A stretch of 21,521 bases of DNA from a virus: positions 1 to 21,521 of IMG/VR virus record IMGVR_UViG_3300040801_006105. One strand, given 5' to 3'. A model generated the notes under the pieces. The model was not told where the DNA came from. It ran no database searches and saw nothing but the letters and a program-made list of their open reading frames with translations. The position numbers were made by a program, and so were the translations under genes. Shown in pieces: positions 12,863-15,450 of this stretch. Numbering within the stretch: position 1 is the stretch's first letter; each line of letters starts with the position of its first letter.

Positions 12863-13705
12863 ATGGAAATCACGAGCAAAGAATCTACGGTTTTAAAATT
12901 AATTAACAAGCCAAGCAAGCAATTAACACAATCTGAGAAAACTTACGTTAAAGCAGAAGAGGTTTTACAGATTAAATCGATCGCTCTTGATAAGTACAAA
13001 CACGCAAAAGTAACTTTAAGTAGCGGTAGATTGTTTAATGAAAAACTACAAGACGATGGTTACGTTTATCTACCTGACTGGGTTGTTCCTTATGCGGTAC
13101 TACCCCGGTCAATTAAGCTAGACGTTGATTACTACTATCAAATCGATAACTCCACAAATCTTTTTGGAACCGGACACAGGCAATGCAAGTTGACCTGCTC
13201 CGCTATGCTAGCTCAACACCTGCTCGAATTATTTGGATTAAAGGACTTGAAGCAGCGACAACAGGAGGGCGGTTTTAGAGAGCCAGAAAGCGTGTATGCA
13301 AAAATTATGCGTCCTTACGGGGATACTATTTACAATACCCCCCATGTAAAAGCGCTCAGTGATTTAGGAATTAAAGCGCATTATTCTAAGAGTTACGAAT
13401 TGGAAGACCTCATAGACGTACTGCTTTGCAATGTTCCAGTACCGATTTCGGTTGATTATAAATCGGGGGGACACATTATTTTGGTGGTGGGTTATGACCG
13501 AGATAAGAAGACTTTTTTGGTACATGACCCCTATGGAAGTCGAGCAGGTGCGGCTCACCGCTATAGCGATCGCAGTCCATTAGCAGGTAAGTACGACACT
13601 TACTCATGGGGCTTGATGGAGGAAATCTATACCAAATACTGGAACCGTCATGCGTTGATTGCGACTGAGGTAAACGGGAAAATTACCGGAACTAGCTTGC
13701 TGTGA
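12863..13705 (+). CDS. C39-type cysteine peptidase, probable endolysin
   Basis: 280 residues. The core matches the C39-like peptidase fold (Peptidase_C39_2). Gln93-x-Asp95-Asn96 precedes the candidate nucleophile Cys108 (HRQCKLTCSAM); then come His204 in SGGHIILVVGYD and Asp222 in VHDPYGS, completing a Cys-His-Asp triad. Residues about 30-80 look like a small beta domain that may bind the cell wall. No signal peptide is present, so a holin would be needed for export. Place in a plus-strand operon with a small membrane protein, under a candidate phage promoter, supports a peptidoglycan-cutting lysin. A virion maturation peptidase is the alternative. The start is ATG without a strong ribosome site. 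Confidence 0.7.
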   Translation: MEITSKESTVLKLINKPSKQLTQSEKTYVKAEEVLQIKSIALDKYKHAKVTLSSGRLFNEKLQDDGYVYLPDWVVPYAVLPRSIKLDVDYYYQIDNSTNLFGTGHRQCKLTCSAMLAQHLLELFGLKDLKQRQQEGGFREPESVYAKIMRPYGDTIYNTPHVKALSDLGIKAHYSKSYELEDLIDVLLCNVPVPISVDYKSGGHIILVVGYDRDKKTFLVHDPYGSRAGAAHRYSDRSPLAGKYDTYSWGLMEEIYTKYWNRHALIATEVNGKITGTSLL

Positions 13706-13869
13706 GGTTCTTTACTATAGGAGTTCCGGAAATATTAGTGTTATCCGTCTGTATCGTCAGCGGATATCTCGCAGTTCAAGATCCAGCCTATCGCGAACAT
13801 TTTAGTCGGTTGGCTGATGCCGCTCTCGTCGGGTTCTGGGCCTGGATGCAAGCGGCAAGAGATCGATGA
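13702..13869 (+). CDS. 55-residue membrane protein, holin candidate
   Basis: GTG start overlapping the lysin stop (GTGA), and stop overlapping the recombinase start (ATGA), so the three genes are coupled and this gene exactly fills the gap. The protein has a membrane segment of about 18-20 residues near its N-terminus (EILVLSVCIVSGYLAV), a polar middle (QDPAYREHFSR) and a second hydrophobic/aromatic helix (ALVGFWAWMQ) with a basic end. This is a small class II holin-like layout, directly downstream of a signal-less lysin. Its size would let most gene finders miss it. Function is inferred from context. Confidence 0.65.
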   Translation: MRFFTIGVPEILVLSVCIVSGYLAVQDPAYREHFSRLADAALVGFWAWMQAARDR

Positions 13870-14801
13870 GCGATTTAATTCAAGCCAAAGAGGGAATATT
13901 TCACCCTCTTTCTCTTAACCCAGCGGTGGTTTATATTTCTTCGTTAGCTCCCGGCAGCCGTCGCACCATCAGGCAATCGTTAGACGTGATCGCAAACTTA
14001 GTAACCAATGGCAATCACAACGCGATTACCTGTCCGTGGGGAAGTTTGAGGTACCAACACACCACCGCTATCCGTAGTTTATTGGTAGAAAAATATTCTC
14101 CTGCAACCTGCAATAAAATGCTCGCAGCTTTGAGACAGGTACTCAAGGAAGCGCAACGATTAGGGTTGATTTCACCAGAAGATTGCGCTAAGGCGATAGA
14201 TATCAAGCGAGTTAAGTCTACTGCACTACCCAAAGGCAGAGCTTTGTCATCAGCAGAACTGGATAAGCTACTTACTGTTTGTTTGGAAGATAGAACAGTT
14301 ACAGGTGTCCGTGACGTTGCAATGCTGATGATTTTGCGGGTTGGTTTGCGAAGATCAGAAGTAGTCAGTCTTGACTTATGGGATTTTGACTCGAATGAAG
14401 GTAATTTAAGGGTGCGGAGTGGAAAGGGGAATAAAGATAGATTGGTGTGGATGCCAGACGCAGCTACTGACTATATCTGTCAGTGGGTGAAGGCTAGAGG
14501 AAATCAAGCTAAGGATAGTCCTCTATTGTTGCCAGTCAGTAAATCAAAGAAGGTGATTTTTAGAAGATTATCTGACCAAGCGGTACTTAAAATTATGGTT
14601 GGACGGGGGAAGCAAGCCGGACTAGAAAGTTTCACTCCCCATGATTTCCGTAGAACTTTTATCGGTGAATTGCTAGATTCTGGAGTTGATATTGTTACTG
14701 CTCAGAATTTAGTTGGTCACGCCTCACCTATTACTACCTCAAAATATGATCGACGGGGAGAAGCAGTCAAGAAGCGAGCGGTTAATAACTTGAGGATTTA
14801 G
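13866..14801 (+). CDS. Tyrosine recombinase (phage integrase)
   Basis: 311 residues. The N-terminal core-binding domain spans about 15-105 and the catalytic domain about 125-311. All expected residues are visible: Arg162 in GLRRSEV, Lys187 in SGKGNKDR, His259 and Arg262 in PHDFRRTF, His285 in LVGHAS, and the nucleophile Tyr294 in TTSKYDRR. It resembles the compact XerC/D-type or simple phage integrases. It would carry out site-specific integration, excision or dimer resolution. The ATG overlaps the stop of the small membrane gene. No clear attachment site was identified nearby. Its place in the same transcript as the lysin is unusual, because integrases are normally expressed separately from late genes. 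Confidence 0.92.
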   Translation: MSDLIQAKEGIFHPLSLNPAVVYISSLAPGSRRTIRQSLDVIANLVTNGNHNAITCPWGSLRYQHTTAIRSLLVEKYSPATCNKMLAALRQVLKEAQRLGLISPEDCAKAIDIKRVKSTALPKGRALSSAELDKLLTVCLEDRTVTGVRDVAMLMILRVGLRRSEVVSLDLWDFDSNEGNLRVRSGKGNKDRLVWMPDAATDYICQWVKARGNQAKDSPLLLPVSKSKKVIFRRLSDQAVLKIMVGRGKQAGLESFTPHDFRRTFIGELLDSGVDIVTAQNLVGHASPITTSKYDRRGEAVKKRAVNNLRI

Positions 14802-14840: not shown

Positions 14841-15056
14841 ATGGGAACTAATGTAGACAAGTATTTCAAATCCGAACATCTAAAGCTTGAGTTACAAGAA
14901 ATTGTAATACCTATAGAAGAGTTAGCAAAGATGTTAAATGCGAGACTTCCAGACGGTTCGGAGAAAAGCGCGGGAATGAGGAAATTACTTGAAGCTAAGG
15001 ATTGTTTCGTCCGAGCAATGCTAGACAGCCTAGATGAGAATAGAGTCGATAAGTAA
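14841..15056 (+). CDS. Acb2/Tad1-like small helical hairpin protein (anti-defence candidate)
   Basis: 71 residues, two helices. The second half, LPDGSEKSAGMRKLLEAKD followed by CFVRA (residues 36-59), resembles the conserved helix of the Acb2/Tad1 hairpin domain, whose members typically show Pro-Asp/Gly, Arg/Glu-Lys-Ser, then Leu-x-Lys-Leu-Glu-Glu-Ala. Those phage proteins bind cyclic oligonucleotides or ADP-ribose signals and so block CBASS and Thoeris defence. The gene is 39 bases after the integrase in the same direction and is followed by a hairpin terminator, so it is the last gene of the operon. Resemblance is from memory and moderate; an unrelated small phage protein is possible. No catalytic residues would be expected. 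Confidence 0.45.
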   Translation: MGTNVDKYFKSEHLKLELQEIVIPIEELAKMLNARLPDGSEKSAGMRKLLEAKDCFVRAMLDSLDENRVDK

Positions 15057-15117: not shown

Positions 15118-15143
15118 ACAAGTTTTCAATGATGAAAACTTGT
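15118..15143 (+). terminator. Perfect 11-bp hairpin, likely terminator of integrase operon
   Basis: ACAAGTTTTCA (15118-15128), 4-base loop ATGA, TGAAAACTTGT (15133-15143), followed by TTTAACAATAATTTTT. It lies 60 bases after the Acb2-like gene and just before the end of the convergent 15163-15450 gene, so it could stop transcription from both sides. The T tail on the plus strand is interrupted, so efficiency is uncertain. Confidence 0.6.
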
Positions 15144-15162: not shown

Positions 15163-15450
15163 TTAAGATATTCTAGTGGCTATCACTCTGACTAAGTATT
15201 CCTCTACAGAAACGTCTTGTGCAGCCGCTTGTAATTTTATCTCCTCAAAATGTTTTTCCTTGTTGCGAATTAAATAGGTTTCGATTGCCGTTGATAAACA
15301 GTTGGTAACACTTTTCTTTGTTGCCAAGCTAGCAATGGTTAAACCAACATACACCCGTGCTGGGAGTTCAGTTGTTGTCAATCGCTTTGACTGGATCTCC
15401 TCTAAAATTCCTTCCTGCTTTAACGCTTCAATAAGTTTATCAATATCCAT
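15163..15450 (-). CDS. Ribbon-helix-helix-like regulator
   Basis: 95 residues. Residues about 23-60 (RLTTTELPARVYVGLTIASL, then TKKSVTNCLSTAIETYLI) have the shape of a ribbon-helix-helix domain: a short beta strand followed by two helices. The C-terminal part is helical, and a second segment near 70-90 (AAQDVSVEEYLVRVI) may be another short ribbon-helix-helix-like unit. Such proteins bind DNA as dimers at short operators. The gene is divergent from a small HTH-like gene; the 100-base gap contains overlapping promoters and inverted repeats. This suggests a phage repressor or plasmid-type partition or antitoxin regulator. The start is ATG; TATACT lies 15 bases upstream as a likely -10. Confidence 0.55.
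   Translation of the reverse strand: MDIDKLIEALKQEGILEEIQSKRLTTTELPARVYVGLTIASLATKKSVTNCLSTAIETYLIRNKEKHFEEIKLQAAAQDVSVEEYLVRVIATRIS

Follow-up and report, generated by a model that had tools for sequence, protein, structure and literature searches.

In the present study, a 71-amino-acid protein encoded in a 21.5-kb virus record (hereafter the window, meaning the whole stretch of DNA analysed) is best read as belonging to the Acb2/Tad1 hairpin superfamily through a divergent sister family, being neither Acb2 nor Tad1 proper. Acb2 is a hexamer that binds cyclic nucleotides, and Acb2 and Tad1 are used by phages to sequester bacterial alarm molecules; Acb2 is in turn a cue to which the Panoptes system responds. 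The window protein is probably an accessory protein that forms an oligomer and binds nucleotides with a specificity different from theirs. The gene, which we annotate as encoding a divergent Acb2/Tad1-type helical hairpin protein of the phrog_1761/phrog_5120 family (14841..15056, plus strand), starts with ATG, and its product, which includes LPDGSEKSAGMRKLLEAKD, is exactly as described in the original prediction. Because relatives with 45-70% identity are encoded in hundreds of phage genomes, this open reading frame is regarded as a genuine gene.

The window protein matches phrog_1761 (E 1.4e-21) and phrog_5120 (E 2.9e-17), neither of which has a known function, and these constitute its own family. 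A literature search found no paper naming phrog_1761 or phrog_5120, and searches of NCBIfam and PADLOC returned nothing for the window protein. Phmmer matches in the PDB (ribosomal protein L3 and a hemolysin fragment) were at noise level and were rejected as chance similarity on LPDG-like strings. At least 587 relatives were found in one scan of IMG/VR, and the family was matched by 330 phage records, among them phages of Vibrio, Erwinia, Mycobacterium, Acinetobacter, Brevibacterium, and Gordonia, and by 119 bacterial genome loci from Chloroflexi, Proteobacteria, Actinobacteria, Firmicutes, Planctomycetes, and the cyanobacterium Stenomitos, which carries two copies. The family consensus reads [YFW]-F-x-[YF]-x-H-L-P-x-x-L-Q-x-V-S-K-P, followed by L-P-D-G-x-E-K-S-A-G-[LM]-R-K-L-L-E-A-K-D-C-F-V-R-A. 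Since KLLEAKDC was among the seeds used in searching for the family, the apparent conservation of these eight residues is exaggerated; outside this seed, R47 and R58 were each present in 158 of 160 family members.

In the window protein, the N-terminal motif, with the family consensus [YFW]-F-x-[YF]-x-H-L-P-x-x-L-Q, occupies residues 8-19 (14862..14897, plus strand) and reads YFKSEHLKLELQ, lacking the aromatic residue at position 11 and the proline at position 15. The core turn and helix 3, LPDGSEKSAGMRKLLEAKDCFVRA, span residues 36-59 (14946..15017, plus strand). The window copy departs from its family only towards the N-terminus (14862-14910), with the unusual residues Y11S, P15K, S22V, and K23I, and the C-terminal half is intact. 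This copy may be diversifying or decaying, and with Ser11, Lys15, Val22, and Ile23 its activity is therefore more doubtful than that of the other family members.

The resemblance to the Acb2/Tad1 hairpin, as claimed in the original prediction, is real and, judging from profile and model comparisons, reaches homology at the superfamily level. The Pfam model was of little help in this respect. The window protein scored 13.3 bits against PF24729, short of the curated cut-off of 27, and the best E-value among 52 relatives was 0.0093. Long unrelated cyanobacterial proteins score up to 24.7 bits with the same model, so Pfam alone proves nothing here, and since the score lay within this noise, a set of canonical PF24729 proteins was collected for profile comparison. 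This set comprised seven seed proteins (PF24729 E-values from 3.5e-11 to 1.8e-27), T4 Vs.4 (7e-20), and IMG/VR relatives, giving 81 canonical hairpins, none of which contains the EAKD motif and none of which belongs to the phrog_1761/phrog_5120 family. First, the alignment of the family profile with these 81 hairpins using hhalign gave a probability of 95.8%, a P-value of 7.3e-9, and a score of 45.8, against a mean of 9.8 and a maximum of 17.2 for 200 column-shuffled canonical profiles and a score of 9.4 for the reversed profile; the similarity of the conserved helix motif is thus far from chance. An initial hhalign run with fewer family members agreed. When an HMM of the canonical hairpins was run over 16,131 open reading frames from 160 loci, 69 family members preceded the first unrelated one, with a best E-value of 1.6e-5. 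Second, PHROG matches were reciprocal. The window protein matches phrog_1454 at 4.7e-4, a level similar to that of T4 Acb2 (Vs.4) itself (7.1e-4); all 28 canonical PF24729 proteins tested fall in phrog_1454, and 4 of these 28 match phrog_1761, at up to 4.9e-4. Residues P37, G39, E41, K42, S43, K48, L49, E51, and A52 are common to the family and the canonical hairpins.

Third, the predicted structures agree in both directions. Acb2 consists of a short N-terminal helix followed by two long antiparallel helices (PMC12043709), and this layout is present in the AF2 monomer model of the window protein, which is all helical (pLDDT 90.8; helices at residues 6-9, 16-35, and 40-69) and arranged as in the model of the canonical protein L094 (helices 7-16, 25-48, and 53-79). 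Outside its own family, the named matches of the window model in BFVD were enriched in proteins designated "Acb2/Tad1 hairpin". Conversely, a BFVD search with the canonical model returned family models interleaved among Acb2/Tad1 hairpins at probabilities of 0.85-1.0, e.g. A0A023NHU2 at rank 16 with a probability of 1.0. The window protein resembles Acb2 (T4 Vs.4 and PaMx33-type p26; PF24729/phrog_1454) in its helical layout, in the turn and helix-3 residues P, G, EKS, K, L, E, and A, and in an F-x-[YF]-H-P-like N-terminal motif, and it resembles Tad1 (PDB 7uav/7uaw) in the C-terminal two-helix hairpin. Tad1 differs in having an N-terminal beta-sheet domain, whereas the model of the 71-residue window protein contains no strands. 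The hairpin also forms the C-terminal part of a longer chain in Gordonia phage Sting gp25 and in BFVD A0A6G6XYP8 from an Ochrobactrum phage, the latter named as an Anti-TRAP domain protein. Two hairpin-type proteins, L084 of Paenibacillus phage Vegas and L090 of Brevibacillus phage Jenst, are publicly annotated as "phosphomannomutase", an apparent annotation error; PF24729 membership was checked for L084.

Despite the common scaffold, the residues that affect ligand binding are changed. In helix 3, the canonical hairpins align as R40 E K S x A x T47 K L E E A x x W55 x N57 A, and the phrog_1761/phrog_5120 family aligns as [PA]40 E K S A G x R47 K L L E A K D C55 x V57 R58. The canonical side of this comparison was anchored on a Thr-containing pattern, and a separate alignment found the Thr nearly invariant; it is present in the aligned segments of the solved T4 Acb2, p26, Acb2 homolog 43 (PDB 9ptq, a canonical-type relative), and Tad1. 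In T4 Acb2, affinity is reported to be reduced by the T68M substitution, and the Y8A mutant to be deficient in binding (PMC12657230). The position of T68 is Arg47 in the window protein and Arg in 158 of 160 family members; that of Y8 is Ser11 in the window protein and Tyr or Phe in most relatives, in a loop where the alignment is less certain than in helix 3. Furthermore, the Arg preceding helix 2 in canonical proteins is Ser22 in the family and Val22 in the window protein, and the canonical Trp55 and Asn57 are both replaced in the family. Since these positions differ and the hairpin residues are shared, the scaffold is retained and the pocket altered. With such altered grip residues, the protein may sequester a different molecule or serve another purpose. 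The anti-CBASS/Thoeris sponge of the original prediction does not follow from the resemblance: the PF24729 cut-off is missed, the T68 residue is lost family-wide, and the Y8 residue is lost in the window protein.

Herein, we propose, with about an even chance of being right, that the window protein is a phage accessory protein with the Acb2/Tad1 hairpin fold, a sister-family oligomer that would sequester a nucleotide-type signal. It would form a small symmetric oligomer, as in Acb2 and Tad1, and the pockets between its subunits would bind and sequester the signal, which would blunt an abortive-infection defence of the host. The altered pocket, with the invariant Arg47 and Arg58 together with Cys55 and Val57, would favour a ligand other than 3',3'-cGAMP.

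The surroundings of the gene in the window were considered next to those of its relatives. A tyrosine integrase gene (13866..14801, plus strand; Phage_integrase E 2.3e-27), included here for context only, lies directly upstream, with 39 bases between its stop and the start of the 71-amino-acid gene. The original prediction regarded the end of an integrase operon as a typical spot for such cargo; the integrase is indeed present in the window, but a BLASTP search with it, an insensitive test, placed a homologue close to the family gene in no more than 4 of the 160 related loci, so this setting is not supported as typical or conserved. Further upstream, at 12863-13705, lies a C39/C70-type cysteine peptidase (E 7.6e-17) that also matches a PHROG endolysin family and is possibly a papain-like type of phage endolysin; a 55-amino-acid open reading frame and the integrase separate it from the 71-amino-acid gene. 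Downstream, the predicted hairpin terminator corresponds to an AT-rich, perfect 11-bp inverted repeat (15118-15128 / 15133-15143), a possible terminator or operator; the repeat itself was thus found, but a terminator scan reported none at 15118-15143, and the RNA fold around it was unremarkable (z -1.2). Convergent with the 71-amino-acid gene, a 95-amino-acid protein is encoded at 15163-15450 on the minus strand and weakly matches a profile of Arc-like repressors (E 0.0014).

Among related phages, the neighbourhoods of the family gene differ, including capsid, DNA metabolism, and lysis genes, as expected of accessory cargo. Lysis genes (endolysin, Amidase_2, and Rz spanin) recur beside the family gene in loci L001-L080 and L254-L333, as raw counts. 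These neighbourhoods bear on a serious, though rather unlikely, alternative, namely that the protein has retained the ancestry and fold of Acb2/Tad1 and lost nucleotide sequestration, serving instead in another job, e.g. lysis timing or the binding of a phage or host protein. Such a loss would be in keeping with the replacement of the ligand-affecting positions. For a role in lysis, 84 neighbouring open reading frames yielded, in raw counts, several endolysin profiles with at most five members apiece, along with Rz spanins and five Amidase_2 matches; in Brevibacterium phage AGM6 the gene follows the holin gene, and in the window the endolysin-like C39 peptidase lies upstream. However, the placement varies, since the gene adjoins a capsid gene in a Vibrio phage and lies within DNA metabolism in RcZahn, and the ends of late operons commonly hold accessory genes. 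Against the proposed sequestering role, the family motif is far more invariant than might be expected of an arms-race protein, with the reservation that the search seeds favoured KLLEAKDC. CBASS cyclases over the cut-off were found in 5 of 49 host genomes carrying the family, a figure without a matched control, and these hosts are not visibly rich in them.

A typical Acb2-type sponge, with the ligands known for Acb2 and Tad1 (cyclic di- or trinucleotides or gcADPR), would agree with the homology and the common fold; it is improbable, however, given that Arg in the family takes the place of the Thr shared by all canonical hairpins compared, that Trp55, Asn57, and the Arg preceding helix 2 are replaced, and that the window copy is without the Tyr8-equivalent aromatic residue. 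Comparison with solved structures was not distinctive. A Foldseek search of the PDB with the window model gave no match below an E-value of 1.5, and in VIA-align the top match (Z 8.0) was a designed mini-binder, with Tad1 7uaw (Z 4.7, rmsd 5.6 over 55 residues) lying amid unrelated hairpins; in the same comparison the true PF24729 member L094 reached only Z 5.6 to T4 Vs.4, so the PDB comparison was set aside as not discriminating. Convergent helical composition in an unrelated two-helix hairpin (e.g. Rop-like) is very improbable, because, although such hairpins are common and the PDB matches at similar Z are unrelated, the shuffled and reversed profile controls, the reciprocal PHROG matches, and the nine specific residues in common all stand against it.

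A cyanobacterial host was an earlier inference with which GCGATCGC-type sites in the window are compatible, and the suggestion that cyanobacterial examples would extend the host range of Acb2/Tad1 proved weak, given the spread of the family across many bacterial phyla and the two copies in Stenomitos. In 386 sampled cyanobacterial genomes, the family was matched in three, one of which was borderline, and canonical PF24729 proteins over the cut-off were found in none; nine weak PF24729 matches in these genomes were to long proteins and were taken as noise. The canonical hairpin search lists one cyanophage record.

Taken together, a family of unknown function in hundreds of phage genomes is now linked to a characterised counter-defence fold. 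As a tentative possibility, phrog_1761/phrog_5120 might represent a major clade of viral sponges that has gone unrecognised, in which a re-tooled Arg-rich pocket sequesters a defence signal other than those of Acb2 and Tad1, and which would serve phages of many bacterial phyla including cyanobacteria. The named departures from Acb2 and Tad1 pose a specific question, namely which nucleotide, if any, is bound by the Arg47/Arg58 version of the hairpin. If the protein is a sponge, the family may lead to an immune signal that has yet to be characterised.
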